Shown one piece after another: positions 4,670 to 32,773 of a stretch of DNA of 33,272 bases. The position numbers were made by a program, and so were the translations under genes. Every line of letters begins with the position of its first letter. The first letter of the stretch is position 1. The notes under the pieces are model-generated. The model saw only the letters and a program-made list of their open reading frames with translations. It was not told the origin of the DNA and searched no databases. The stretch is from NCBI GenBank assembly GCA_031263105.1, contig JAISGJ010000220.1, positions 1 through 33,272 of the forward strand. The letters run 5' to 3'. Origin of the DNA: Coriobacteriales bacterium (lineage in GTDB: Bacteria > Actinomycetota > Coriobacteriia > Coriobacteriales > UBA8131).

Positions 4670-5767
4670 ATGCCGAGCATGACGTATCGCATGGAGATGC
4701 AGTTCATCCGCTGGTTCGGGCACAAGCGCGTCTTCGGGCTGCCCGAGGCCGAGCTTCGCCGCTGGCTTGCGCACAGCGTGGGGCGGCGGCCTGTCGGTGT
4801 GCCAAGGCCCATACGCGCGTCCCACACAGTCCGTGACCAGCGCATCGAGGGCCGCCCGTGCCCGATCGTCTCCCCACGGGCCGGGGCTTCGCGGGCCATG
4901 CGGGTCGCGCGGGCTCCTCAGCTTGTACGGGCCGCAGGAGCTATGCAGAGCACACGGATCGCAGGTGCCACGCAGGCCACAGAAGACAGAGGCCCCTCGC
5001 TGGTGCCGCCTGCCAGCCCGACGATCGCAGGGGGCCCTCCGGCCGCAGGAAGCAGCGCCCGCCCCGCCGACGCGCCGGTCGTGCTGTTCCTGCACGGGGG
5101 AGGCTTCCTCTTCGAAGCCCTGTTCGCCCACTGGGTGGCGGTCGACCGCCTTGTCCGAGAGACCGGTGCCGAGGTCTGGTTTGCCGCCTATCCCCTCCTG
5201 CCCCAGGCCACCCTATACGAGGCCCACGACATGGTGCTCGCCACCTGGCAGCGGATGTGCGAGCGCCACGACCCCGCCCGGATCGCCGTGCTCGGCGACT
5301 CGGCAGGCGCGACGCTTGCCCTCACGCTCACCCATGCCCTGCGGGCCGCAGGCCGCCCGCTCCCCCGCCAGCTCGTCCTGGCCTCGCCGGCCCAGTCCCT
5401 GTTCGAGCCGCACATCCGTGCGCAGATGGCCGCCTTCGCGCCCCTCGACGTGATGATCCCCCTCTCGCTCTTCGACGTGCTGGCACGGCTGATGCCCGAG
5501 CGGCCGGGCACCGCCCCGTGGATGCTGCGTCCGTTGGAGGGGGACTTCTCTGGCTTCCCACAGACCATGGTCCTCTCCGGCACCCACGAGGTCCTCTACC
5601 CGCTGATGCCCGACTTCCTGGAGCGCCTCGCCGCCGCCCGGGTGCCCACGGAGTTCGTCAGCGGCGAGGGGATGTGCCACGTCTGGCCCTACATCCCCGC
5701 CGCACCCGAGTGCGTCCGCACCCTCGGCCATATGATCGCGGCCCTGGCCGACGGGCCGTCAGCGTAG
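4670..5767 (+). CDS. alpha/beta hydrolase (HSL-like esterase/lipase)
   Basis: HGGGFLF oxyanion motif and GDSAGATL nucleophile elbow; ATG 4670 preferred over ORF-track 4577 (TATACT -10-like just upstream). Confidence 0.8.
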   Translation: MPSMTYRMEMQFIRWFGHKRVFGLPEAELRRWLAHSVGRRPVGVPRPIRASHTVRDQRIEGRPCPIVSPRAGASRAMRVARAPQLVRAAGAMQSTRIAGATQATEDRGPSLVPPASPTIAGGPPAAGSSARPADAPVVLFLHGGGFLFEALFAHWVAVDRLVRETGAEVWFAAYPLLPQATLYEAHDMVLATWQRMCERHDPARIAVLGDSAGATLALTLTHALRAAGRPLPRQLVLASPAQSLFEPHIRAQMAAFAPLDVMIPLSLFDVLARLMPERPGTAPWMLRPLEGDFSGFPQTMVLSGTHEVLYPLMPDFLERLAAARVPTEFVSGEGMCHVWPYIPAAPECVRTLGHMIAALADGPSA

Positions 5768-5778
5768 GAGAGGGTCAC

Positions 5779-6978
5779 ATGGGGAGAAACGAGCAGTGTC
5801 AAAAGGGCACTTCCGACAACGACCTGAGCCGCAGAGGCTTTATGGCGCTCTCGTGCACCGGAGCTGTCGCCTTGACGGGCCTTGTGCTTGGGGGGTGCAG
5901 TGCTCCCTCACAGACTCCAGAGCTGAGCCGCAGAATCGATGCCATAGTGAACGGGATGAGCCTCGAACACAAGGTGGCGCAGCTGTTTGTCGTTCGACCA
6001 GAAAGCATGGTCGATGCGGAGACGGTGACTCGGGCTGACGGCCAGACTCGGGAAGCACTGAGGCGGTGGCCTGTCGGCGGGCTGGTGTATTTCGCGCAAA
6101 ACCTCATCGATGCGGAGCAGACGAAGGCGATGCTCGACGACACCCTGCGCCATGGGCTCGAGTCAAACGACATCCCGCCGTTTTTATGCGTCGACGAGGA
6201 AGGCGGTGCAGTGTCGCGGATTGGCGGAAACGTCGGCTTCGACGTTGCCAATGTTGGCGACATGGCTGACATCGGGGCATCTGACGACCCCGCTTTGGCC
6301 AAGAGCGCGGCATCCGCTATAGGGGGATATCTGAAACCCCTCGGTTTCAACGTCGATTTTGCCCCCGTGTGCGACATCGTCAACAACCCTGACAGCGGCA
6401 CCATGAGACGGCGTTCTTTTGGAGACGACCCTGACCGAGTGGCCCGCATGGCAGCGGCTCAGGTCGAAGGCCTTTTGGAGCACGGCATGCTGTGCTGTGC
6501 GAAGCACTTCCCCGGTATCGGTTCCGCCACAGGAAACAGCCATGATGCAGGAATAACGTCGGCCCGGTCGGCTGAAGACCTGCGCGAAGTCGAACTGCTG
6601 CCGTTTGTGTCGGCAATTCGTGCTGGCGTGCCGTTTGTCATGGTAGGGCACCTGTCCCTTCCTGCGGTGACCGGGGACGATGCCCCTGCCTCGCTTTCGC
6701 CAACCGTGGTGCAGGGGTTGTTGAGGGAAGAGATGGGATACGAAGGACTGATCATAACCGACTCGCTGGAGATGGGCGCTGTCGATGAGGAGGAAAACGC
6801 CGTCCTTGCCTTAGGGGCAGGGTGCGACATCGTTCTCATGCCGCCAAGCCTCGAGCAGGCAATCAATGGCGTGCGTGCGGCCCTTGATATGGGAAGGCTC
6901 AGCGAAGAGCGGATCGATCGATCGGTTCGTCGCGTCCTACGCACCAAGCTTGAGTTTATGGGGAACTCGTTCCTGTAG
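5779..6978 (+). CDS. glycoside hydrolase family 3 (beta-N-acetylhexosaminidase-like) Tat/lipoprotein
   Basis: SRRGFMALSCTGAVALTGLVLGGCS signal with lipobox; KHFPGIGSATGNSH and ITDSLEMGAV motifs of NagZ-like GH3. Confidence 0.85.
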   Translation: MGRNEQCQKGTSDNDLSRRGFMALSCTGAVALTGLVLGGCSAPSQTPELSRRIDAIVNGMSLEHKVAQLFVVRPESMVDAETVTRADGQTREALRRWPVGGLVYFAQNLIDAEQTKAMLDDTLRHGLESNDIPPFLCVDEEGGAVSRIGGNVGFDVANVGDMADIGASDDPALAKSAASAIGGYLKPLGFNVDFAPVCDIVNNPDSGTMRRRSFGDDPDRVARMAAAQVEGLLEHGMLCCAKHFPGIGSATGNSHDAGITSARSAEDLREVELLPFVSAIRAGVPFVMVGHLSLPAVTGDDAPASLSPTVVQGLLREEMGYEGLIITDSLEMGAVDEEENAVLALGAGCDIVLMPPSLEQAINGVRAALDMGRLSEERIDRSVRRVLRTKLEFMGNSFL

Positions 6979-10070: not shown

Positions 10071-10630
10071 GGCCCATGGAACCGCCCGCCTCTCGTTGCC
10101 GCAGGACACTATGACCCAAGCCCTTCCAGCGTTCACACCCCCACTGTCATCCCGAGCCTGTCGAGGGATCCTCGACCGCGCAAGCGGTCGACTGCGGTCG
10201 GGAGGCGTTTCGACCTGCGGTCGGCTGCTTCGCTCTCCATGGGCCGGGCGGCCCGTCCTCGCTAAGAACAGTCCGCCGGACTGTTCTCCGGGCGCTCGGG
10301 CCCGTGGGCCTGTCGGTTCCATGGGCTCACCCGCTCAGGGGCTCATACGCTGCTTCGCAGCTTCGCCCGGAAACAGCGCACCGCGCTGTTTCCCAGTCCG
10401 CAGGACTGTCGCGCCGTCCTCGCTGAAAACGCGATGCGTTTTCCGGGCGCTCGAACCCTAGGATTCCTCGGCAGGCTCGGCATGTCAGTGGGGGCTCGGA
10501 CTGTCAGTGGGGGCTCGGAATGACCGTGGGGGTGTGAACGGTAACGTTCCGGCACGGATGTGCGACCGGACTTGCGGCGACGGCCCTCGTCCGGCTGCGG
10601 GCCGATGGGGTAGAATGGACCTGCGGTGTT
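10071..10630 (+). promoter_or_regulatory. Promoter block upstream of hsdM, split by repeat copy 3
   Basis: 10546-10618 matches 20128-20200 with 3 mismatches in 73 nt, includes GGGGTAGAATGG (-10-like); 10071-10130 also aligns to 20076-20135. Confidence 0.6.
10131..10545. repeat. MITE-like palindromic element, copy 3 (composite, contains mini-hairpin array)
   Basis: GTTCACACCCCCACTGTCATCCCGAGC ... GGTGTGAACGGTAAC; flanks CTTCCAGC (10123-10130) / GTTCCGGC (10546-10553); uninterrupted homologous site at 20076-20200. Confidence 0.8.
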
Positions 10631-10780: not shown

Positions 10781-12280
<1,500 letters not shown>

Positions 12281-12353
12281 TTTCAACGAAAAACTCTCGC
12301 CACTGGTGAGAGAAAGATGATTATTCAACTTAGTGGCTTTAGAGGAGGGAGTC

Positions 12354-12701
12354 ATGACATCTGACAATTCCGAGATTATCATCTATCGCTCCTCAGACGG
12401 CGAGGTCAAGGTGGACTGCCGCCTCGACGGGGAGACGTTATGGCTCTCCCAAGCGCAAATCGCGCAGGTATTTGGGCGGAGCGTCAGCGTCGCTTCTCGG
12501 CATATCAAGAACATATTTGCCGAGGACGAGCTTGCCGAAAAAAGCAATTTGCAAAATTTGCACATTCCAAATTCCGACAGGCTGGTTATTGCAGAATTTG
12601 CAATAACCACTCGACACGGCGCAATGAAGGGCAAATCGCAAGAACATGCCATGATGCACTATAACCCTGACGTCGTCTGCGCGGGAGGTGAGGAGGAATG
12701 A
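12354..12701 (+). pseudogene. Truncated RhuM-like protein (5' fragment)
   Basis: N-terminal RhuM signature GETLWLSQAQIAQVFGRSVSVASRHIKNIFAEDEL; homology stops at HYNPDVV, reading frame ends inside the RBS/start of hsdS. Confidence 0.6.
12584..12608. repeat. Perfect inverted repeat GGTTATTGCA-GAATT-TGCAATAACC
   Basis: 10-bp arms, 5-bp centre, inside rhuM fragment. Confidence 0.95.
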
Positions 12702-13837
12702 GAACCGAACGAACAGCTCACCAGTTGGCTGACATTATCGACCTTATCGGTGGCGGAACACCGAAAACCAGCATTCCTGAATACTGGGACGGTGAAATTC
12801 CGTGGCTTTCAGTCAAGGACTTCAATAACGATGACCGCTACGTGTATTCCACTGAAAAGTCCATAACCCAAACTGGCTTTAACAATAGCTCTAGCAAGAT
12901 GTTGGCGCACGACGACATCATTATTTCAGCTCGCGGCACAGTGGGCGAACTGGCGATGATTCCGTTCCCGATGGCATTCAATCAGTCTTGCTATGGGATA
13001 AGGGGCAAGAAGGGCGCTATCTTGCAAACCTACCTCTACTATTTATTGAAGGACAGTATCCGACTTCTAGAAAACCAGACACACGGTTCGGTGTTTGACA
13101 CTATCACGCGGAACGCTTTCGCCAACATCAAAGTGAACCTGCCGATGATTCACGAACAGCAGACAGTAGCTGACACCTTAACCGCTTTGGATGACAAGAT
13201 TGCTGCCAACAAGCGTATAAATCATCGTTTAGAACAGATGGCGCAGGCCATCTGGTCGGAGCGATTCGGCGGACTCGAGCCAAACGGCAAGTTGGGTGAA
13301 GTCATTGAGATTTTTGACTCCAAGCGTGTGCCACTTTCCGGCAGTCAGCGTGAGAAAATGGATAAAACCTATCCCTACTACGGCGCAGCTGCACTTATGG
13401 ACTACGTCGACGACTATCTGTTTGATGGCATCTACCTTTTGCTTGGCGAGGATGGAAGCGTGATTGATGATTCGGGCTTCCCAGTACTTCAGTATGTCTG
13501 GGGTAAATTCTGGGTCAACAATCATGCACATATTCTTCAAGGCCGAAACGGCTTTACTGTAGAAAGCCTCTATGTTCTCTTGAGTCAAACTGGCGTAGCA
13601 TCGATTATTACCGGTGCTGTGCAACCCAAAATCAATCAAGCAAACCTCAAGGCTCTCGAAGTGGTCATCCCGTCCAGAAATGAGATGGTTCAATTCAACG
13701 ATACGGTCGACTCGCTTTTCGTGCAGATTCGGAATCATCACGACGAGAACCTCCGTCTTGCCGCCCTGCGCGACACCCTCCTGCCCCGCCTGATGTCCGG
13801 CGAGCTGTCGGTCGCGGACGCAGGCGTTAAACGATGA
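12698..13837 (+). CDS. hsdS: Type I restriction-modification specificity subunit 1
   Basis: Two TRD halves; central INHRLEQMAQAIWSERFGGLEPNG and C-terminal LAALRDTLLPRLMSGEL. Confidence 0.92.
   Translation: MRTERTAHQLADIIDLIGGGTPKTSIPEYWDGEIPWLSVKDFNNDDRYVYSTEKSITQTGFNNSSSKMLAHDDIIISARGTVGELAMIPFPMAFNQSCYGIRGKKGAILQTYLYYLLKDSIRLLENQTHGSVFDTITRNAFANIKVNLPMIHEQQTVADTLTALDDKIAANKRINHRLEQMAQAIWSERFGGLEPNGKLGEVIEIFDSKRVPLSGSQREKMDKTYPYYGAAALMDYVDDYLFDGIYLLLGEDGSVIDDSGFPVLQYVWGKFWVNNHAHILQGRNGFTVESLYVLLSQTGVASIITGAVQPKINQANLKALEVVIPSRNEMVQFNDTVDSLFVQIRNHHDENLRLAALRDTLLPRLMSGELSVADAGVKR
13217..13253 (+). repeat. 37-bp direct repeat in hsdS1 (partner 15437-15473)
   Basis: ataaatcatcgtttagaacagatggcgcaggccatct exact match; contains AGATGGC-GCAG-GCCATCT palindrome. 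Confidence 0.95.
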
Positions 13838-13841
13838 TTTA
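13769..13841 (+). repeat. 73-bp exact direct repeat at hsdS1 3' end (partner 16061-16133)
   Basis: cgcgacaccctcctgccccgcctgatgtccggcgag...gttaaacgatgattta identical at both loci. Confidence 0.95.
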
Positions 13842-13844
13842 TTG

Positions 13845-13893
13845 CTCCTTCTGCCAGTGCATAATGCATTTCTTATCGAAACGGCAGGAGGAG
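13845..13893 (+). promoter_or_regulatory. Hairpin predicted to sequester the recombinase Shine-Dalgarno
   Basis: CTCCTTCTGCC (13845-13855) pairs over 11 positions (one G-U) with GGCAGGAGGAG (13883-13893), which contains the SD before ATG 13896. Confidence 0.55.
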
Positions 13894-13895
13894 TT

Positions 13896-14888
13896 ATGAA
13901 GGACAGGTTGATAACTGAGATTCAGGCACGTATGGCGTTGATGTTAACGCAGGCGCAACTGGAGGAGCTACGGCGGGTGCTGACGCACAGCCTCCACAAC
14001 GTGGAAGTTTCGGAGCGCAAAGCCCCAGACCCACACGAAGCCGCCGAGAATGGAGGGTTGTTGGACGTGTTTATCGCTGCGAAACGGATTGAGGGCTGTT
14101 CGGAGAAGTCGCTGAGATACTATACCGCGACCATCCGTGCGATGCTCGGCACCGTAAAAAGGCCCGTGCGCGAAATCGCAACGGACGACCTGCGAGGCTA
14201 TTTGGCAAGCTACCAGAAGGAGCGCGGCTCCTCCAGAGTGACTGTGGACAACATGCGGCGAATATTCAGCAGCTTCTTTGGGTGGCTGGAGGACGAGGAC
14301 TACATCCTCAAAAGCCCCGTGCGGCGCATCCACAAAGTCAAGGCGGAAAAGACCATCAAGGAGACCTTTTCCGACGAAAGCCTAGAGCTGCTCCGCGATG
14401 CCTGCGAGGAAATCCGCGACCTCGCGATGATAGACCTGCTCGCCTCAACGGGGATGCGCGTGGGCGAACTGGTGCAGCTGAACCGCGCAGACATCAACTT
14501 CCACGAACGGGAATGCGTGGTCTTTGGCAAAGGCGGCAGCGAGCGAGTGGTCTACTTCGACGCCCGGACGAAAATCCACCTGCTGAACTACCTCGACAGC
14601 CGAAGCGACAACAGCCCCGCACTGTTCGTGTCGCTGCCCCTGCCCCACGAGCGCCTGCTCATCGGCGGCGTGGAGACACGCCTACGCGAAATCGGCAAGC
14701 GAGCTGACATGCAGAAAGTACACCCCCACAAATTCCGCCGCACCCTCGCCACCCGCGCCATAGACAAAGGAATGCCCATCGAACAAGTGCAGCGGCTACT
14801 CGGTCATGTCAAAATAGACACGACCATGCACTACGCTATGGTCAACCAAGCAAACGTGAAGAACTCGCACAGGAAATTTATCGGATGA
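13896..14888 (+). CDS. Tyrosine recombinase/integrase
   Basis: STGMRVGEL, HKFRRTLATRA, LLGHVKIDTTMHY: R-HxxR-H-Y catalytic set; N-terminal SAM-like core-binding domain. Confidence 0.92.
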   Translation: MKDRLITEIQARMALMLTQAQLEELRRVLTHSLHNVEVSERKAPDPHEAAENGGLLDVFIAAKRIEGCSEKSLRYYTATIRAMLGTVKRPVREIATDDLRGYLASYQKERGSSRVTVDNMRRIFSSFFGWLEDEDYILKSPVRRIHKVKAEKTIKETFSDESLELLRDACEEIRDLAMIDLLASTGMRVGELVQLNRADINFHERECVVFGKGGSERVVYFDARTKIHLLNYLDSRSDNSPALFVSLPLPHERLLIGGVETRLREIGKRADMQKVHPHKFRRTLATRAIDKGMPIEQVQRLLGHVKIDTTMHYAMVNQANVKNSHRKFIG

Positions 14889-16129
14889 GGGAGGCGGACG
14901 AAATGAGCAAATGGGAACGGCTTGCGCTTGGGGATGTCGCAGGCATCAAGCACGGTTACGCCTTTAAAGGCGAGTACTTCTGCGACGAACCTACGCACTT
15001 TTTGCTCTTGACTCCGGGGAATTTTATGATTGGTGGGGGCTTTCAGGAAAAGCCGAAATTCTATAACGGTCCTATTCCCGAGAGTTATGTTCTTGCAAAA
15101 GACGATTTAATCGTCACAATGACTGATTTGAGCAAACGAGGCGATACGCTGGGTTATTCGGCACTTGTTCCCACAAGCAACCGCTATTTACACAATCAGC
15201 GCATAGGTTTGGTAACAATGAAGAATTCCGAGGTATTAAAGGAGTTCGTTTACTGGCTAATGCGAACTTGGGACTATCAAAGGTTCATCATAAACCATGC
15301 TTCTGGTAGCACGGTAAAACACACATCCCCTAAGACAATCTTGTCTTACGAATTTGCGGCTCCCCCTATTGAGGAGCAACGAATAATCGTGGCAACGTTG
15401 TCTGCCATAGATGACAAAATCGCCAACAACAGGGCGATAAATCATCGTTTAGAACAGATGGCGCAGGCCATCTTCAAATCATGGTTCGTGGACTTCGAGC
15501 CGTGGGGCGGGAAGATGCCGGATGATTGGCGGGAAGGCACGATTTCCGATTTGGGCGATGTCATCGGTGGCAGTACGCCGTCCAAAGCAAAGCCCGAATA
15601 TTACGCCGAACATGGTATCGCTTGGATTACACCCAAAGATTTGTCTATCAACAAGAGCAAGTTCATAGCTCGCGGAGCAAATGACATCACGGAGTTTGGA
15701 CTTCGCAACAGTAATGCACGTCTGATGCCGCCGGGAGCTGTCCTTTTCAGCTCTAGGGCACCTATCGGTTACATTGCCGTAGCGAGTGGTGAAGTCTGCA
15801 CCAATCAGGGCTTTAAGTCCATCGTTCCGAAAGAGACCGTTGGCACGGCTTTCGTTTACTGCTTCCTGATTGAGAATCTCCAAACCATAGAGAGCATGGC
15901 TTCGGGTTCGACTTTCAAAGAAGTATCGGGCACAACAATGAAAGGCATTCCCGCTGCTATTCCCACCGATGACACATTTCGCCGCTTTCAAGAAGAGTGC
16001 ACCTCCCTTTTCGAGAAGCAAGAACTTCTGGAAGCAGAGAACGCTCGCCTCGCCGCCCTACGCGACACCCTCCTGCCCCGCCTGATGTCCGGCGAGCTGT
16101 CGGTCGCGGACGCAGGCGTTAAACGATGA
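14885..16129 (+). CDS. hsdS: Type I restriction-modification specificity subunit 2
   Basis: Two TRDs; INHRLEQMAQAIFKSWFVDFEP central and LAALRDTLLPRLMSGELSVADAGVKR C-term identical to hsdS1; start overlaps integrase stop. Confidence 0.92.
   Translation: MREADEMSKWERLALGDVAGIKHGYAFKGEYFCDEPTHFLLLTPGNFMIGGGFQEKPKFYNGPIPESYVLAKDDLIVTMTDLSKRGDTLGYSALVPTSNRYLHNQRIGLVTMKNSEVLKEFVYWLMRTWDYQRFIINHASGSTVKHTSPKTILSYEFAAPPIEEQRIIVATLSAIDDKIANNRAINHRLEQMAQAIFKSWFVDFEPWGGKMPDDWREGTISDLGDVIGGSTPSKAKPEYYAEHGIAWITPKDLSINKSKFIARGANDITEFGLRNSNARLMPPGAVLFSSRAPIGYIAVASGEVCTNQGFKSIVPKETVGTAFVYCFLIENLQTIESMASGSTFKEVSGTTMKGIPAAIPTDDTFRRFQEECTSLFEKQELLEAENARLAALRDTLLPRLMSGELSVADAGVKR
15437..15473 (+). repeat. 37-bp direct repeat in hsdS2 (partner 13217-13253)
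   Basis: Exact match. Confidence 0.95.
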
Positions 16130-16133
16130 TTTA
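16061..16133 (+). repeat. 73-bp exact direct repeat at hsdS2 3' end (partner 13769-13841)
   Basis: Exact match. Confidence 0.95.
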
Positions 16134-16178: not shown

Positions 16179-19100
16179 ATGCCACAAGACACGTACAGAT
16201 ATGCACACTTCACCGAAGCTCACTACGAGAACGCCGTCATAGAGGTGCTCCGCGACACCTTGGGCTACGGCTCTGTCTACGCGCCTGACCTGGAGCGGGA
16301 TTACACCGACCCGCTCTATGTGGACGAGTTGCTGCCTGCCTTGCGCAAAATCAATCCCAAGGTGCCGGAGGCGGCGCTTGCGGAGGCGGTCTACAGGCTG
16401 CGGGACTTCGAGGGCGGGACGCTCTGGCAGAAGAACATCCGGTTCATGGACTACCTCCAGAACGGAGTGCCCGTCAACTATCACGACGGGGGCGAGCAGC
16501 AAGCGGAGCTGGTCAACCTTGTGGACTACGAGGACGTGGGGCGAAACACCTTCACCGTCGCCAATCAGTGGACGGTTGTCGAGAACAGCGAGAAGCGTCC
16601 CGATGTCATCGTCTTCCTGAACGGCATGCCTATCGTAGTGTTTGAGCTCAAATCGCCCTCCCGGGAGGAGACCGATGCGAGCGAGGCGTACCGGCAGCTG
16701 CGCAACTACATGCAGGAGATACCGTCGCTGTTCGTCTACAACGCCTTCTGCGTCATGAGCGACCTTGCCACGTCCAAGGCCGGCACCATCACTGCCGAAG
16801 AAGACCGCTTCATGGAGTGGAAGACGAAGGACGGCAGCTACGAGAACACGCAGCACGCCCAGTTCGACACCTTCCTTGAGGGGATGTTCGACAAGGCGCG
16901 GCTGCTCGATATTGTCAAGAACTTCATCTGCTTCTCCGACGACGTGAAGATTCTCGGCGCGTACCACCAGTACTTCGCGGTGCGCAAGGCCATCGACTCC
17001 ACCCAGAGTGCGTCAGGGACAGACGGGAAGGGCGGCGTGTTCTGGCACACGCAGGGCAGCGGCAAGTCGCTCTCGATGGTGTTTTACGCGCACCTGCTGC
17101 AGGAGGCCCTGAACTCGCCGACCATCGTGGTCCTCACCGACCGCAACGACCTTGACGACCAGCTCTTCGAGCAGTTCTCCAAGTGCGCCGACTTCCTGCG
17201 GCAGACCCCGGTACAGGCGGAGAGCCGCGAGCACCTGAAGGAGCTTCTTGCCGGACGACGGGCCAACGGCATCATCTTCACCACCGCGCAGAAGTTCGAG
17301 GAGTCCGACGAGCGCCTTTCCGAGCGCAGCAACGTCGTCATCATCGCCGACGAGGCCCATCGCAGCCAGTTCATCGACCAAGCCGTCGACAGCAAGACGG
17401 GCAGGGTCAAAAAGACCTTCGGCCTCATCATCCGGGAGAGTCTGCCGAACGCCACCTACATCGGCTTCACGGGAACGCCGATATCCAGCAAGGACCGCAG
17501 CACCATCGAGGTCTTTGGCAACTACATCGATGTCTACGACATGACGCAGGCCGTCGAGGACGGCGCCACCCGCCCCGTCTACTACGAGAGCCGCGTCATC
17601 CATCTGAGGCTCGACGAGGACATCCTGCGGCTCATCGACGCCGAGTACGACCTCATGGCACAGAGCGCCGAGCCTTACGCCATCGAGAAGAGCAAGAAGG
17701 AGCTCGGTCGCATGGACAGCATCCTCGGTGCGGAACAGACCTTGGACGCGCTCTGCGAGGACATCGTGAGACACTACGAGGAGAACCGGCAGAACGAGCT
17801 CACGGGCAAGGCGATGATCGTCTCCTACTCCCGCCCGATCGCAATGGGCATCTACCGGAAGATACTCTCGATGCGCCCTGCCTGGGCAGAGAAGGTCGGC
17901 GTGGTGATGACCTCCAGCAACGACGACCCCGAGGAGTGGCACGGCGTCATCGGCAACAAGCGCCACCGCGACGAGATGGCCAAGAGGTTCAAGGACGACG
18001 ACGACCCCCTGAAAATCGCAATTGTCGTGGATATGTGGCTGACCGGCTTCGACGTGCCGAGCCTCGCGACGATGTACCTCTACAAGCCGATGGCCGGGCA
18101 CAACCTGATGCAGGCCATCGCCCGCGTCAACCGCGTCTACAAGGACAAGGAGGGCGGCCTGGTCGTCGACTACGTCGGCATCGCCTCCGCGCTGAAGCAG
18201 GCGATGAACGACTACACGAACCGCGACAGGCACAACTACGGGGACACCAACGTCGCCAAGACCGCATTGCCGAAGTTCGTTGAGAAGCTCGAGGTCTGCC
18301 GCGACCTGATGCACGGCTTTGACTATTCGGTCTTTATGAGAGACTCTGCGTCCGACCTCGACCGGGCAAAGACCATCAGCGGCGGCGTCAATTTCCTGAC
18401 GGCGGTGGAGCCGCTGCCCCGGCCTGCCGCCACTCCGACCGACGTCATCGGCTCGGACGACTACTTCTATGCGGACAAGGTGGCCGAGGGGGCGTTCGGG
18501 GCGCCGTTCGCGCACAAGGCCCTGAAGGCCTCGCCCGATGAGCGCGAGACGCGCAAGGACAGCTTCATCAAAGAGGCGATGCTGCTGCGCCAGGCCCTGT
18601 CGCTTTGCCGCAGCCTGCTGACCCCCGCGCAGAGGCTCGAGGCTGCGTACTTCGAGGCGGTGCGCACCTTGCTCACGCGCATCACAGGCGAGGACAAGCC
18701 GCTCTCGCTCAAGGACATCAATGCTCGCGTCAACGAGCTCCTCAAAGCGAGCATCCGAAGCGAAGGCGTCATCAACCTCTTCTCGGACATCGACACGGGC
18801 TTCTCGCTGTTCGACTCCCAGTTCCTCGAAGAGATCGCCAAGATGAAGGAGCGCAACCTCGCGGTGGAGATACTCAAGAAACTGCTCGCCGAGCAGATAT
18901 CCCTCTACCGCAGGACGAACCTCGTCAAATCCGAGAAGTTCTCCGAGATGCTTTCACGGGCAATGAAGGCCTATCTCAATGGGATGCTCTCCAACGAAGA
19001 GGTCATCGCCGAGCTGATGAAGATGGCGCACGAGATGCAGACCGCCCACGAGGAAGGCTCCGCGATGGGCCTGACCGACGAGGAACTCGCCTTCTACGAC

Positions 19101-19349
19101 GCACTGACGCGACCGGAGGCCATCAAGGACTTCTACGAGAACGACGAGCTCGTGGCGATGACGCGGGAACTCACGGACGTCCTGCGCAAGAGCCGCACCA
19201 TCGACTGGCAAAAGAAGGAGTCCGCCCGCGCCGGGATGCGCCGCATGGTCAAGAAGCTCCTGAAGAAGCACAAGTACCCGCCCGAGGGCATGGACGACGC
19301 CATCACCACCGTCATAGGCCAATGCGAGATGTGGACGGACAGGCCATAA
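16179..19349 (+). CDS. hsdR: Type I restriction endonuclease subunit R
   Basis: 1056 aa; nuclease region VFELKSP; helicase motifs HTQGSGKSLSM, DEAHRSQ, GFTGTPI, QAIARVNRV. Confidence 0.95.
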   Translation: MPQDTYRYAHFTEAHYENAVIEVLRDTLGYGSVYAPDLERDYTDPLYVDELLPALRKINPKVPEAALAEAVYRLRDFEGGTLWQKNIRFMDYLQNGVPVNYHDGGEQQAELVNLVDYEDVGRNTFTVANQWTVVENSEKRPDVIVFLNGMPIVVFELKSPSREETDASEAYRQLRNYMQEIPSLFVYNAFCVMSDLATSKAGTITAEEDRFMEWKTKDGSYENTQHAQFDTFLEGMFDKARLLDIVKNFICFSDDVKILGAYHQYFAVRKAIDSTQSASGTDGKGGVFWHTQGSGKSLSMVFYAHLLQEALNSPTIVVLTDRNDLDDQLFEQFSKCADFLRQTPVQAESREHLKELLAGRRANGIIFTTAQKFEESDERLSERSNVVIIADEAHRSQFIDQAVDSKTGRVKKTFGLIIRESLPNATYIGFTGTPISSKDRSTIEVFGNYIDVYDMTQAVEDGATRPVYYESRVIHLRLDEDILRLIDAEYDLMAQSAEPYAIEKSKKELGRMDSILGAEQTLDALCEDIVRHYEENRQNELTGKAMIVSYSRPIAMGIYRKILSMRPAWAEKVGVVMTSSNDDPEEWHGVIGNKRHRDEMAKRFKDDDDPLKIAIVVDMWLTGFDVPSLATMYLYKPMAGHNLMQAIARVNRVYKDKEGGLVVDYVGIASALKQAMNDYTNRDRHNYGDTNVAKTALPKFVEKLEVCRDLMHGFDYSVFMRDSASDLDRAKTISGGVNFLTAVEPLPRPAATPTDVIGSDDYFYADKVAEGAFGAPFAHKALKASPDERETRKDSFIKEAMLLRQALSLCRSLLTPAQRLEAAYFEAVRTLLTRITGEDKPLSLKDINARVNELLKASIRSEGVINLFSDIDTGFSLFDSQFLEEIAKMKERNLAVEILKKLLAEQISLYRRTNLVKSEKFSEMLSRAMKAYLNGMLSNEEVIAELMKMAHEMQTAHEEGSAMGLTDEELAFYDALTRPEAIKDFYENDELVAMTRELTDVLRKSRTIDWQKKESARAGMRRMVKKLLKKHKYPPEGMDDAITTVIGQCEMWTDRP

Positions 19350-20075: not shown

Positions 20076-20257
20076 GGCCTATGGAACCGCCCGCTTCTCG
20101 TTGCCGCCGAGCGACATGGCCCGAGCCGTTCCAGCACGGATGTGCGACCGGGCTTGCGGCGGCGGCCCTCGTCCGGCTGCGGGCCGATGGGGTAGAATGG
20201 ATCTACGTTGTTTATCAGGGGATACCCGCGAGGGCAAAGGCGACAGGAGGGCGTCAC
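20076..20257 (+). promoter_or_regulatory. Uninterrupted promoter block upstream of MmeI-like gene (homologue of block at 10071-10630)
   Basis: GTTCCAGCACGGATGTGCGACCGGGCTTGCGG...GGGGTAGAATGG near-identical to the hsdM upstream region. Confidence 0.6.
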
Positions 20258-23047
20258 GTGGACATGAGGCGGCAGCGGGCGGCAGCGGCGGCCTTCGCCG
20301 GGAAGTGGGCGGGGCGCGGCTACGAGAAGGGCGACACCGCCCCGTTCTGGCTGGAGTTCCTGCGCGAGTGCCTGGGCGTGGCCGACCCCGACTCACTGGC
20401 CAGGTTCGAGAGGCGCACCGACGCGGGGTTCCCCGACGTGACCATCTCAGACACCGGGGTCATCATCGAGCAGAAGTCCCTGGGGGTGGACCTCGACAAG
20501 GCCGAGACCCGCCAGAGGCGGCAGGTCACCCCCTACGAGCAGGCGCTCAGCTACGCCCAGTCGCTGCCCCCCTCGCAAAGCCCGCGCTTCATCGTCACCT
20601 GCAACTTCGAGACCTTCCGCATCTACGACCGCGAGGCCGACCAGTCCGGCGAGGCCTTCACGCAGGTCGGGCTCGAGGAGCTGCCCGAGCAGGTGCACCT
20701 GTTCGGCTTCATGGCAGACCCCGCCAACTCCCGCACGGAGCGCGAGCGCAAGGTCTCCGTCGAGGCGGGCGCGCTCATCGGGGAGCTGCACCGCAGGCTC
20801 CGGGCCCAGTACCCCGACCCGGAGGGCGCCGAGAGCCGCCACTCGCTGAACGTGCTCTGCGTCCGGCTGGTCTTCCTGCTCTTCGCCGAGGACGCGGGGC
20901 TGCTCGGGAGGAAGGACTTCCTCTACGACTACCTGCGGGAGGTGCCCGCCGGCAAGGGGATGTTCCGCCGCGCCCTGCTCGACCTCTTCGACGTGCTGGA
21001 CACGCCCGCAGACGAGCGCAGGCTCTACCCGGGGGACGCGCTCGCCGGCTTCCCCCACATCAACGGCGGCCTGTTCGCAGAGCGCATCGAGGTCCCCGTC
21101 TTCACCGACGACATCAAGCACCACCTGCTCCAGAGGACCTCCCTGGGCTTCGACTGGTCGGCGATAAGCCCGGTCGTCTTCGGCGGGGTCTTCGAGTCCA
21201 CCCTGAACCCCGAGACCCGCGCCGGCGGCGGCATGCACTACACGAGCGTCGAGAACATCCACAAGGTCATAGGCCCGCTGTTCTTAGACGCGCTCGAGGA
21301 GGAGCTCGACGGCATCGTCGCCGCAGGGCTGCCGGAGAGGGCCTTGGCGCAGCGGCTCCGGGGCTTCCAGGACAGGCTCGCGTCCCTGCGCTTCCTCGAC
21401 CCCGCCTGCGGCTCCGGCAACTTCCTCACCGAGGCCTACCTCTGCCTGCGCCGCCTGGAGAACCGCGCTCTCATGCGGCTCCACGGCGGGCAGGGCACGC
21501 TCGACCTCGGCGACGGCGGCGCCGTCAAGGTGGGCCTCTCGCAGTTCTACGGCATCGAGATAAACGACTTCGCCGTGCGCGTGGCCGCCACCGCACTCTG
21601 GATAGCCGAGCTCCAAGCCAACCGGGAGAGCGAGGGCGTCACCCACCGCGCCATCGAGGACTTCCCCCTCAAGGACAGCGCCAACATCGTGCTCGCCAAC
21701 GCCCTCGCCACCGACTGGGACGACGTGCTGCCCGCCGACGAGTGCAGCTACGTCATGGGCAACCCGCCGTTCTTGGGGTATTCGACCATGAGCAAGCAAC
21801 AGGCGGCGGAGATGCAGGCCATCTTCGAGGGCACCAAGGGAGCCGGCACGCTTGACTACGTAGCCGCCTGGTACAGGAAGGCCGCCGACTACTCGGACGA
21901 CACGGGCGTCCACTGCGCCTTCGTCTCAACCAACTCGATCTGTCAAGGGCAGCAGGTCGAGCCGCTCTGGAAGCCTCTGTTCGAGCGCGGCATCCACATC
22001 AACTTCGCCCACAAGAGCTTCGTCTGGAACAGCGAGGCGACAGACCTCGCCCACGTTCACGTCGTCGTCGTCGGGTTCTCGCACGAGCCTGACCGACCGC
22101 TCCTGTTCGAGTACCTGGGCGGAAGGGGCGCGGCGACCGTCCGCCCGGTGAACAACATCAACGCCTATCTCGTAGACGCAGACAATGTGTTCGTCGCAAA
22201 GCGGTCGAAGCCGATGAGCGACGTGCCGCCCATGACCGCCGGAGGCAAGCCCACGGAGGGAGGCAACCTCATCCTGTCCCAAGACGAGAGGGACGAGCTA
22301 GTCTGCAGGGAGCCGCTTGCCGAGAGGTACATCCGCAGCTACTCGATGGGCGCCGAGTTCATCAACGGCATCCCCCGCTACTGCCTGTGGCTCGTGGACT
22401 GCCCTCCCCACGAGCTGCGCCAGATGCCCCTCGTGCGGGAGCGGGTCGAGCGGGTGCGCGAAATGCGCCTGGCGAGCTCGAAGGATGCGACGCGCAGAAA
22501 GGCCGCCACGCCGACGCTGTTCGATGAGATACGAGCGATTTCCGGTGACCACTATATAGCAGTACCGCAGGTCTCCTCCGAGAGACGAAACTACATACCC
22601 ATCGGGTTCCTGACGAACCAGACGGTTCCGGGCAACATGCTCTTCGTGATCGGAGGGGCCGACACGTACCTGTTCGGATTGCTCACCTCCCAGTTCCACA
22701 ACGCCTGGATGCGCACGATCGCCGGACGGCTGAAGTCAGATTATCGCTATTCGAACACACTGGTCTACAACACCTTCGTCTTCCCCGACGCGACTGAGGG
22801 GCAGAAGCAGGGAATCTCGGCTCGTGCCCAAGCGGTCCTTGATGCCCGCGCCAAATTCCCCGAAAGCTCCCTCGCCGACCTCTACGACCCCCTCGCCATG
22901 CCGCCCGACCTCCTCCGCGCCCACCGCTCCCTCGACCGCGCCGTCGAGCAGGCCTACGGCGTCACCTTCAACGGCGACGAGGAGCGAATTGTCGCGCATT
23001 TATTTGGGTTGTACTCGCAGGAAATCGAACATTTCGATGCCCAGTAA
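20258..23047 (+). CDS. MmeI-like (Type IIL/IIG) DNA methyltransferase, likely single-chain R-M enzyme
   Basis: FPDVTISDTGVIIEQK (PD-ExK-like nuclease), FLDPACGSGNF, GNPPFLG, MmeI-type domain order; GTG start 7 nt after AGGAGG. Confidence 0.85.
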   Translation: MDMRRQRAAAAAFAGKWAGRGYEKGDTAPFWLEFLRECLGVADPDSLARFERRTDAGFPDVTISDTGVIIEQKSLGVDLDKAETRQRRQVTPYEQALSYAQSLPPSQSPRFIVTCNFETFRIYDREADQSGEAFTQVGLEELPEQVHLFGFMADPANSRTERERKVSVEAGALIGELHRRLRAQYPDPEGAESRHSLNVLCVRLVFLLFAEDAGLLGRKDFLYDYLREVPAGKGMFRRALLDLFDVLDTPADERRLYPGDALAGFPHINGGLFAERIEVPVFTDDIKHHLLQRTSLGFDWSAISPVVFGGVFESTLNPETRAGGGMHYTSVENIHKVIGPLFLDALEEELDGIVAAGLPERALAQRLRGFQDRLASLRFLDPACGSGNFLTEAYLCLRRLENRALMRLHGGQGTLDLGDGGAVKVGLSQFYGIEINDFAVRVAATALWIAELQANRESEGVTHRAIEDFPLKDSANIVLANALATDWDDVLPADECSYVMGNPPFLGYSTMSKQQAAEMQAIFEGTKGAGTLDYVAAWYRKAADYSDDTGVHCAFVSTNSICQGQQVEPLWKPLFERGIHINFAHKSFVWNSEATDLAHVHVVVVGFSHEPDRPLLFEYLGGRGAATVRPVNNINAYLVDADNVFVAKRSKPMSDVPPMTAGGKPTEGGNLILSQDERDELVCREPLAERYIRSYSMGAEFINGIPRYCLWLVDCPPHELRQMPLVRERVERVREMRLASSKDATRRKAATPTLFDEIRAISGDHYIAVPQVSSERRNYIPIGFLTNQTVPGNMLFVIGGADTYLFGLLTSQFHNAWMRTIAGRLKSDYRYSNTLVYNTFVFPDATEGQKQGISARAQAVLDARAKFPESSLADLYDPLAMPPDLLRAHRSLDRAVEQAYGVTFNGDEERIVAHLFGLYSQEIEHFDAQ

Positions 23048-24467: not shown

Positions 24468-24510
24468 TGTTGAATCCACTGGCTGCAATTAGAGATAGGT
24501 GCGTAACATC

Positions 24511-26019
24511 ATGACCAACGAACACCTACACAAACTACTCGCCGAGGGCGAGGGCCTCACGGTCGAGTTCAAGGAGAGCACGAGCACCCTGAGCAACGCC
24601 GTGTTCGAGACCGTCAGCTCCTTCTCCAACCGCTATGGCGGCCATATACTCATCGGCGTCAAGGATGACGGCACGGTGCTTGGCGTGAGTCGCAATGCCG
24701 CTGGCTCGATGAAGAGGAACTTCGCCAACACCCTCAACAACCCCGAGCGCATGGCCCCCACGCTGTTCCTGAACCTAGAAGAGGCGGAGGTCGACGGCAG
24801 GCTCGTCCTCTATGCATACGTCCCCGCAAGCTCGCAGATACAGATGTTCTCCTCGCGGATATACGACCGCAACGAGGACGGTGACATGGACATCACCAAC
24901 TCCACCGACCTTATCGCCCAAATGTCCATCCGCAAGTCCAACAGCTTCACCGAGCGCAAGGTGTTCCCATACGCAACCTCAGACGACCTTCTGTTAAACG
25001 AACTGATGCCCGTCGTGCGCCGCAAGGCGGTAGGTCGGCAGGCTGGGCACCCGTGGGGCGATATGAGCGATATGGAGATACTGCTCAGCGCCGGCCTATA
25101 CGAGAAGGACAGGGTTACCGGCAAGGAGGGCTTCAACCTCGCAGCCCTCATGCTCTTCGGGCGCGACGAGATAATCCAGCAGGCGTCCCCCGGCTACGTG
25201 ACGGACTGCCTGCTGCGGGTGAAGGACATCGACCGCTACGACGACCGCGAGCGTGTGGACTGCAATCTCATCCAGGCATTCGACAAATGCATGGCGTTCA
25301 TCCGCAAGCACACCATCGACCCGTTCTTCCTCATCGACGACCTCAATGCCAGCGTTCGCGACAAGATCGCTAAGGAGTTGGTTTCCAACATCCTCGTCCA
25401 CCGAGAGTTCTCAAGCCCCATGCCAGGACGCATCGTCATCGAGAAGAACAGGATGACTGGCGAGAACTGGAATCGCTCGCTGCACCCCGGCCACCTTACA
25501 CCGGAGAGCTTCGAGCCCTATCCCAAGAATCCCATTCTCTCGCGCTTCTTCGTGAACATCGGCTACGCCGACACACTCGGGTCTGGTGTACGCAATCTGT
25601 TCAAATTCGTGAAGATGTACTCTGGCTCAGAACCGGAGTTACTTGAGAGCGATGTCTTCAAGACGATTATCCCGCTACCGCAGCTTGACGCAGAAAGCGT
25701 TAAGGTTGTGAGCTACGTTGCAGTGAGTGCTGCTCAAAGCACAAATACAGGTGAAACTGAAATTGGAAATACAACTGAAGGACAGGGCAATGCAACCACA
25801 AATGCAACTGTAACTCAATTCGGTGCAGCTGCAAATGCAACTGAAAATCAGATTCTTAACGCTGTTCGAAAAGAAAGGGCCATTTCATATGACGAGCTGG
25901 CGCAAAGGCTCTCGAAGGATAGAACGACAATCTACCGAAATATCAGGGCTCTTAAAGATAGAGGTATCTTGGAACGCGTTGGCCCTAATAAGGGCGGACA
26001 CTGGAGGATTCTAAAATAG
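24511..26019 (+). CDS. AlbA_2 (Schlafen-like) ATP-binding/RecG-like regulator with C-terminal HTH
   Basis: EGLTVEFKESTSTLSNAVFETVSSFSNRYGGHILIGVKDDG; ELVSNILVHREFS; HTH AISYDELAQRLSKDRTTIYRNIRALKDRG. Confidence 0.85.
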   Translation: MTNEHLHKLLAEGEGLTVEFKESTSTLSNAVFETVSSFSNRYGGHILIGVKDDGTVLGVSRNAAGSMKRNFANTLNNPERMAPTLFLNLEEAEVDGRLVLYAYVPASSQIQMFSSRIYDRNEDGDMDITNSTDLIAQMSIRKSNSFTERKVFPYATSDDLLLNELMPVVRRKAVGRQAGHPWGDMSDMEILLSAGLYEKDRVTGKEGFNLAALMLFGRDEIIQQASPGYVTDCLLRVKDIDRYDDRERVDCNLIQAFDKCMAFIRKHTIDPFFLIDDLNASVRDKIAKELVSNILVHREFSSPMPGRIVIEKNRMTGENWNRSLHPGHLTPESFEPYPKNPILSRFFVNIGYADTLGSGVRNLFKFVKMYSGSEPELLESDVFKTIIPLPQLDAESVKVVSYVAVSAAQSTNTGETEIGNTTEGQGNATTNATVTQFGAAANATENQILNAVRKERAISYDELAQRLSKDRTTIYRNIRALKDRGILERVGPNKGGHWRILK

Positions 26020-31248: not shown

Positions 31249-32709
31249 TCAGAGCACGGTGTATTTGGTTGCAGCAGATGTGCCGTTGCCGACTCTTTGC
31301 ACCCTGCCCTGACCAATCAGCTTGCTCAGTGAGTAGCGAACTTTAGCAAAGGTCAGACCCGTTGCCTTCTCAATCTGGCTTCGTGACAGGGGCTCTGTCC
31401 TTAAAGCCGCGAGTATCAAATCAATGTTACTCTTCTTGTCCCCCGTATCCTTCTCCAGGATTACGACAGGCTCATCCGGCTCGGCTCCTGCCGGTTTCAG
31501 TATCACCGTGAAATAGATGCCAGCATCAATAAAAGTGGGTGGCGCCATGTCAAGCGAGGCCAACTCTTCCAGAATCCGAGGAATCCCGCTGCCGAGCCTC
31601 TCTATGACGTTTTCCCCGCCATCGTCAACGACGTACTGGCATATCTCGGCAATCTTAGCGTTTCGCGTCTTTGAGCTGGTATGCCCAAGCTCATCTACTG
31701 ACAGGCCGTATAATCCGCCAGGATTACTGATAACCAGACGGTCGTCTTCAATGATGAGACTGATGTTTTGGAGCATGGACACAGGATTCATATCGCGATG
31801 AATCAGGGTGTTCGCGACCAACTCTCTGACCACAGATACGGGATACTCTCTGACATTGCGCACATGGCCGCTGCTCAGATTCAAAGTGAGCTCGTCGGTA
31901 TTGTGCTCAAGCCAGTGCAGGGTTTCGCTGAGTATCGTGGGGATCGGCCCATCTATCGAGTTGACATTGACGGCCCTAACCCTGTTGGGGCGGCTTTTCT
32001 TCTGTACGCTGACTTTGATTGAGTAATTTGGTAGAAACTGCTGAGGGAATATGCCCAAGGCTACTGCTCCGGCAACAGTCAGCTCGCCCTTGCGGTCGAT
32101 CACGCCTGTGCGAAACAGAATGTCCTCATCTTCCAATTTCGCAAGCGCTTGCGATTGTTTGCGCCGCCTTGCAATGTATGATTGCGTCAAATCCTTGTTC
32201 AAATCCTCAACTCTTGAGCCAGAGATGGTATCCTCATCAAAATGACTCGGACCGCGGCCAGCTATGAAGAACATCTCCTCTTGCGGCGAAAGGTGATAGT
32301 CACCATCGTAGAGCCTGATGTATGCCTTGCCGCTCTTCTCGATCTTGACTGGCTTCACCGTTCTGTCAGACTCCAGCACTCTTGCCCAAACGACCTGTTT
32401 GCTCCCAACGTTTATTAGAATGGTCTCAATAGTTATTGTGATCGAGAAGTTCTTGCGAGCGTAAGAGGCCAACGCCTGTTGGCACCGCTTTGGGTCATAT
32501 ACGCCAACGATGCTAAACTCAGCATTCTCGTCCACTCCGAGTATGATTACGCCGCCTCCTGGCGTATTGGCAAATGCAGACATTGTTTCCAATATGGATT
32601 CAGGCATTCCTCCAGAAGCAGTCTTTACCTCAAAATGGCGGTTATCGCTACGCTCTAACCGAAGTTCTGCGAGAACCGCATTGAGTCTGCTCAGGTCCAC
32701 CGTTTCCAT
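31249..32709 (-). CDS. AlbA_2-domain ATP-binding regulator (second copy) with C-terminal wHTH
   Basis: HFEVKTASGGMPESILETMSAFANTPGGGVIILGVDE; RELVANTLIHRDMN; C-term LSRSQIEKATGLTFAKVRYSLSKLIGQG. Confidence 0.85.
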   Translation of the reverse strand: METVDLSRLNAVLAELRLERSDNRHFEVKTASGGMPESILETMSAFANTPGGGVIILGVDENAEFSIVGVYDPKRCQQALASYARKNFSITITIETILINVGSKQVVWARVLESDRTVKPVKIEKSGKAYIRLYDGDYHLSPQEEMFFIAGRGPSHFDEDTISGSRVEDLNKDLTQSYIARRRKQSQALAKLEDEDILFRTGVIDRKGELTVAGAVALGIFPQQFLPNYSIKVSVQKKSRPNRVRAVNVNSIDGPIPTILSETLHWLEHNTDELTLNLSSGHVRNVREYPVSVVRELVANTLIHRDMNPVSMLQNISLIIEDDRLVISNPGGLYGLSVDELGHTSSKTRNAKIAEICQYVVDDGGENVIERLGSGIPRILEELASLDMAPPTFIDAGIYFTVILKPAGAEPDEPVVILEKDTGDKKSNIDLILAALRTEPLSRSQIEKATGLTFAKVRYSLSKLIGQGRVQRVGNGTSAATKYTVL

Positions 32710-32773
32710 ACATGCCCCATTTCTACTTTCCACTTGTCAGTTCTCAGCTCTCTCGAACGCCAGCCTCGGCACC

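Follow-up and report, generated by a model that had tools for sequence, protein, structure and literature searches.

A highly probable four-site cassette switch of the SsuCC20p type in a type I restriction-modification locus of a Coriobacteriales bacterium

Two hsdS genes on either side of a tyrosine recombinase, sharing exact repeats in direct orientation, raise the question of whether, and by which reaction, a type I restriction-modification locus could change its specificity. We addressed this question for a locus in a 33,272-nucleotide contig of a Coriobacteriales bacterium (JAISGJ010000220.1, analysed over its whole length and hereafter called the window), which belongs to a metagenome-assembled genome (MAG) of 2.9 Mb in 250 contigs, 86% complete and with 6.5% contamination. 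All genes of the run lie on the plus strand, in the order hsdM, an open reading frame (ORF) of 122 amino acids, hsdS1, the recombinase, hsdS2 and hsdR (Table 1). An original prediction had described two hsdS genes with a tyrosine recombinase between them, which Pfam and NF040815 profile matches bore out, both hsdS genes being complete and the recombinase apparently intact; it had placed exact direct repeats of 37 and 73 bp correctly to the base, and it had called the target recognition domains (TRDs) of the two genes unrelated, as they are, apart from a weak similarity of 24-32% over part of their length. Our analysis indicates that the locus is very probably a four-site cassette inversion/exchange switch of the type described as SsuCC20p in Streptococcus suis, by which the bacterium could probably change the DNA sequence that it methylates.

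The element on which this reading turns is a 14-bp core, TAAATCATCGTTTA, present in exactly four copies in the window, all identical to each other and alternating in orientation. A search allowing up to two mismatches gave 4 matches in the window, compared with a mean of 0.08 in shuffled sequences and a maximum of 1 in any of 100 shuffles. Both direct repeats end exactly on copies of this core, and the identity extends from it on the cassette side for 22 bp at the central sites and 59 bp at the 3' sites, while on the outer side it is lost within 1 bp. From the inverted pairing of the cores and the restriction of the identity to one side, it follows that each 3' TRD forms a cassette with an inverted pair of cores at its borders, and that the 37- and 73-bp direct repeats represent the ends of the cassettes and not complete recombination sites. 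A tandem duplication of an hsdS gene was rejected as the source of the repeats, since the sequences immediately outside the sites differ. The original prediction was right in proposing a candidate specificity switch, but it overlooked its key element, the four cores in inverted pairs.

In the mechanism that we propose, the recombinase, presumably active in this genome, would act at the four alternating copies of the core, the likely point of crossover. The 3' TRDs would move as cassettes within their inverted pairs, and the 5' TRDs would stay outside them, TRD1 fixed behind hsdM and TRD3 carried behind the recombinase. Inversion of a single cassette (sites 1-2 or 3-4) would break or restore one hsdS, and inversion over sites 1-4 plus 2-3 would swap the cassettes. 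When every core pair was allowed to recombine in silico, in up to three steps, four in-frame HsdS proteins resulted, namely TRD1-A (379 amino acids), TRD3-B (408), TRD1-B (403) and TRD3-A (384), with a predicted truncated product of 207 or 226 amino acids wherever a cassette was inverted. Recombination between direct copies (1-3 or 2-4) would delete the recombinase and freeze the locus, as a side or loss reaction. The 1-3 deletion excises 2,220 bp in silico and forms TRD1-B with loss of the recombinase, and the 2-4 deletion leaves TRD1-A; the geometry of an excision of about 2.2 kb fusing TRD1 to the second 3' TRD had been foreseen accurately. In S. suis, deletion of xerD is reported to lock the locus (PMC10790761). 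Because both cassettes stand in sense in this assembly, two full HsdS proteins are encoded in one hsdM-hsdR gene run, and both may be expressed.

It had also been argued that the repeats, being direct, exclude inversion. This does not hold, since the cores occur in both orientations and near-identical relatives differ by inversions, cassette swaps and one cassette duplication, leaving deletion as a side reaction that would end switching. The Lactococcus plasmids pJM2A, pUC073A, pUCCL627F and pJM1A share 100% identity over 520 bp of TRD1, 1,580 bp of recombinase and TRD3, and 1,486 bp of right flank; despite these identical flanks, their cassette states are X+/Y-, X+/Y-, Y+/X- and X-/X+, respectively. 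The swap in pUCCL627F relative to the X+/Y- plasmids needs two inversions, whereas the doubled cassette of pJM1A would need an exchange between molecules or a comparable event, such as a duplication, and not inversion alone. Between L003 and L004, two relatives with 99.2-99.7% identity in their shared parts, the outer flanks have traded places and are inverted with respect to the recombinase. A cassette common to L037 and L039 (99.8-100%) stands at one position in the first and, in the reverse orientation, at the other position in the second, and L044 and L046 have every part in common except cassette B. At the protein level, the window's cassette B matches cassette B of L011 (87% identity) and cassette A of L006 (83%) and L007 (79%); such matches at both positions imply that cassettes move between positions and lineages. 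Judged by these comparisons of sequence, related loci show switching in nature.

As a separate observation, both cassettes have 100% the same sequence in pJM1A (L179, 4277-7182), with one complete hsdS, and in L143 (3271-6151), with none, which suggests cassette exchange between molecules.

The recombinase has relatives of 84-86% identity in genomes whose labels include Oscillospiraceae, Synergistales and Pectobacterium. In a tree of 141 rows made by a quick method, it falls within a 17-row set (support 96) and a 34-row set (SH-aLRT 98), the latter also containing the recombinase of S. suis 10581, whose sites are the published SsuCC20p repeats (PMC10790761). By their record titles, the members of the 34-row set, mostly MAGs whose individual taxon labels may be wrong, belong to at least eight phyla: Bacillota, Pseudomonadota, Synergistota, Spirochaetota, Acidobacteriota, Verrucomicrobiota, Deferribacterota and Myxococcota. 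Among 246 genomes sampled from the window's own phylum, only 3, its own included, gave a match at E 1e-80. A search of E. coli DNA found nothing, and the recombinase also occurs on plasmids (13 records). The wide spread among phyla, together with this patchiness within its own, suggests horizontal transfer. The window's hsdM is up to 87% identical to that of four-site relatives. The closest solved relatives of the recombinase by sequence are XerC-like 4a8e, XerA 5hxy and XerD 1a0p, and the alignment with them keeps R, HxxR, GH and Y, which we take to be the expected tyrosine-recombinase motifs. A 62%-identical recombinase was also seen on an archaeal plasmid, Methanosphaera pNP174 (5001-5999), whose annotation shows no hsd gene within 5 kb of the recombinase and which has no repeated TAAAN6TTTA site.

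By architecture, the locus belongs with SsuCC20p (PMC10790761, PMC5198162). The two share the order hsdM-hsdS-recombinase-hsdS-hsdR, two sets of 14-bp inverted sites (TAAATCATCATTTA / TAAATGATGATTTA in S. suis) flanking both 3' TRDs, a recombinase of one supported clade and four possible HsdS, the exchanged halves being in frame in the window. The window differs in its host range, in one base of the core, in its two-complete state and in having, between hsdM and hsdS1, a short PDC-S05-like ORF; the single complete hsdS per genome in S. suis is a reported regularity rather than a feature of architecture. The authors of that report regarded the switch as restricted to streptococci (PMC10790761), so the window places it in a different phylogenetic setting and broadens its range to a recombinase clade found in no fewer than eight phyla. 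The pneumococcal SpnIII/cod locus with its recombinase PsrA (CreX) too has a tyrosine recombinase inside a type I locus and exchanges TRDs by inversion, with a 15-bp IR1 site, but its repeats form three distinct pairs, and hsdSA alone among its three hsdS genes is functional, compared with one core type and two complete sense hsdS genes in the window (PMC7096588). A 2020 survey in mSystems, which searched for inverted hsdS copies with longer repeats, reported inverting hsdS loci from a wide variety of bacteria, frequently accompanied by recombinases (PMC7394358). Two sense hsdS genes with 14-bp sites would probably be missed by a search of this kind. Another survey of 2020, on 'epigenetic invertons', reportedly covered host-associated bacteria.

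How unusual the two-complete state is was assessed by counting. Of 158 loci, 14 were set aside as near-duplicates, 45 because they lack a TAAAN6TTTA site, 27 as partial, 9 for an inverted recombinase and 2 because its orientation was unknown, which left 61; L001 and L082-L107 never entered the count, and the four Lactococcus loci, with one complete hsdS each, dropped out because they nearly duplicate L158, a partial viral contig. The non-redundant four-site loci, window included, thus number 72, with the recombinase in normal orientation in 61. Among these, 33 were A+B-, 26 A-B+, one A-B- (L143) and one A+B+ (the window), so that exactly one hsdS is complete in 59/61 (binomial against one half, 1.6e-15, kinship ignored); earlier and stricter counting passes gave the same single exception. 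Because the A+B-/A-B+ label switches no fewer than 15 times over the recombinase tree, the regularity is not a single inherited state. In the recombinase-inverted loci one hsdS stays complete regardless of how the cassettes lie, and in 3/9 both cassettes point the same way (Fisher 0.013 in comparison with the normal group, which includes the window). Two of these three loci are sister rows, and all are labelled Bacteroidota. They weakly hint that what is maintained is the completeness of one hsdS rather than a mechanical parity. The same three loci were the ground, weak for the reasons just given, for rejecting a parity rule of a purely mechanical kind. The regularity known from S. suis is now generalised, with one clear two-complete exception in these data.

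Several observations weigh against an active switch in this genome. The window is the only two-complete locus among the 61, and in S. suis two complete hsdS genes are reported never to occur together, in any assembly or read (PMC10790761). The locus is single-copy in the 2.9-Mb genome and was seen in one state on one MAG contig with no alternative junction. That contig passes unbroken through the sites, as would be expected if the population were fixed in a single state and switched slowly or not at all. A further locus complicates the count: in a truncated MAG contig counted as partial (L069, 5217-7557), cassette A stands in sense and the same cassette begins in sense after site 3, which may indicate either a mixed state or another two-complete locus. 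One reading is that the assembly is at fault, with a population that mixes one-complete states and a contig that joins segments of different molecules. The fragmented and partly contaminated MAG and the one or no complete hsdS in all other normal-orientation loci would fit it, as would the contigs of L013, L045 and L051, which end at their sites as mixed states would predict. The window contig does not break there, however; if each molecule had one complete hsdS, both sense junctions could hardly be in the majority, and repeats of 37 and 73 bp should be shorter than typical reads. We regard such an artefact as unlikely, although it deserves to be kept in mind. It is rather doubtful that the locus is locked, two ordinary tandem hsdS genes in which switching has ended: the single state and a predicted masking hairpin before the recombinase would agree with this, but the recombinase is open and conserved (86% identity to L002), and decay would erode the four cores, which are identical.

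Improbable, in our view, is excision and reintegration through the direct repeats, in which a 2.2-kb circle would leave and re-enter at another repeat. The pneumococcal SpnIV/tvr locus, with its recombinase TvrR, operates in this way and resembles the window in combining direct repeats with a tyrosine recombinase (PMC6265443); direct copies are indeed present in the window, two S. suis isolates are reported to have lost xerD, TRD2 and TRD3, as a 1-3 deletion would predict (PMC10790761), and the X-/X+ state of pJM1A is unexplained by inversion alone. Yet every repeat ends on a core that is also present inverted, inversion accounts for most of the rearranged relatives, and the 58 bp between hsdS1 and the recombinase contain no tvrAT-like ORF. 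SpnIV has two direct-repeat types and tvrAT upstream of its recombinase, unlike the alternating inverted cores of the window (PMC6265443). We therefore retain the four-site inversion/exchange switch. The S. suis authors describe the route by which such loci move between specificities as unknown (PMC10790761). Tentatively, and with less than even confidence, the two-complete state could be a genuine intermediate: cassettes would switch singly, the old and new specificities would be made together, the chromosome would be protected from self-restriction, and the lineage would be parked there, with an RNA leader keeping the recombinase low and possibly coupled to translation of the upstream hsdS. 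A strain in this state would make the switching intermediate directly testable.

The leader in question lies between site 2 and the recombinase start, where a predicted stem covers the Shine-Dalgarno sequence AGGAGG; the hsdS1 stop codon ends 6 nt before it. Hairpins are predicted in most relatives (mean z -2.95 over 74 recombinase leaders, z < -1 in 64/74), and the mean pairing of the Shine-Dalgarno hexamer is 0.74, compared with 0.57 when the 5' part is shuffled, being higher in 60/74. For the window's clade, RNAalifold gave an empty consensus on 23 leaders because the stems shift register, and the hairpin is supported there only by single-sequence folds. A more distant group (39 leaders, 62-68% recombinase identity; alignment A1, e.g. 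L055:5899-6003) has a covarying pseudoknot followed by a Shine-Dalgarno-masking stem, whereas the window leader has the masking stem only. In this group 95.2% of cells are paired, compared with 42-59% in slid controls, 11/21 pairs changed on both sides, and 0/500 shuffles were as high for 4/5 measures, counts biased in favour of the pseudoknot because it was drawn from the alignment on which it was scored and leaders of other lengths were left out. An Rfam search of the window locus and six relatives, two of them outside the pseudoknot group, gave no match, and a limited literature search found no comparable recombinase leader. In SpnIV an attenuator hairpin before tvrR limits recombinase expression (PMC6265443). 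The conserved leader suggests control of recombinase synthesis at the RNA level.

Table 1. Features of the hsd locus (window positions).
Feature	Position	Strand	Evidence or remark
hsdM, type I methyltransferase subunit	10781..12280	+	Pfam N6_Mtase 7.7e-108, HsdM_N
122-aa ORF between hsdM and hsdS1	12333..12701	+	PADLOC PDC-S05 5.4e-26, residues 8-81
hsdS1	12698-13837	+	ORF; two Methylase_S stretches (Pfam); complete HsdS
TRD1, fixed 5' half of hsdS1, outside recombination sites	12698..13217	+	ORF, Pfam
37-bp exact repeat (core + cassette-side extension)	13217..13253, copy 15437-15473	+	
Recombination site 1, core TAAATCATCGTTTA	13218..13231	+	encodes N-H-R-L in frame
Cassette A, 3' TRD of hsdS1, sense	13232..13827	+	
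73-bp exact repeat (cassette-side extension + core)	13769..13841, copy 16061-16133	+	
Recombination site 2, inverted core	13828..13841	-	contains hsdS1 stop codon
Predicted leader hairpin masking recombinase Shine-Dalgarno	13844..13894	+	-24.2 kcal/mol, z -2.95
Tyrosine recombinase, 330 aa, XerA/XerD type	13896..14888	+	Phage_integrase 2.3e-33; XerA-type NF040815 5.9e-71
hsdS2	ORF 14885-16129, likely start ATG 14903	+	SD GGGAGG precedes start; two Methylase_S stretches; complete HsdS
TRD3, 5' half of hsdS2, moves with recombinase	14903..15437	+	
Recombination site 3	15438..15451	+	
Cassette B, 3' TRD of hsdS2, sense	15452..16119	+	
Recombination site 4, inverted core	16120..16133	-	contains hsdS2 stop codon
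hsdR, type I restriction subunit	16179..19349	+	TIGR00348 1.7e-174

The 122-amino-acid ORF matches only the N-terminal part of PADLOC PDC-S05/S23-type (RhuM-like) proteins, and similar sequence was found in only 2 relatives; it is probably a truncated gene. A 19-bp unit repeated three times in tandem and an inverted pair of 29 bp lie just upstream of hsdM (10130-10158, 10474-10540). Downstream of hsdR, the window encodes an MmeI-like type IIG restriction-methyltransferase (20081-23047), and two SLFN_AlbA_2 (Schlafen-type) genes stand near the restriction genes (24499-26019 and 31249-32733).

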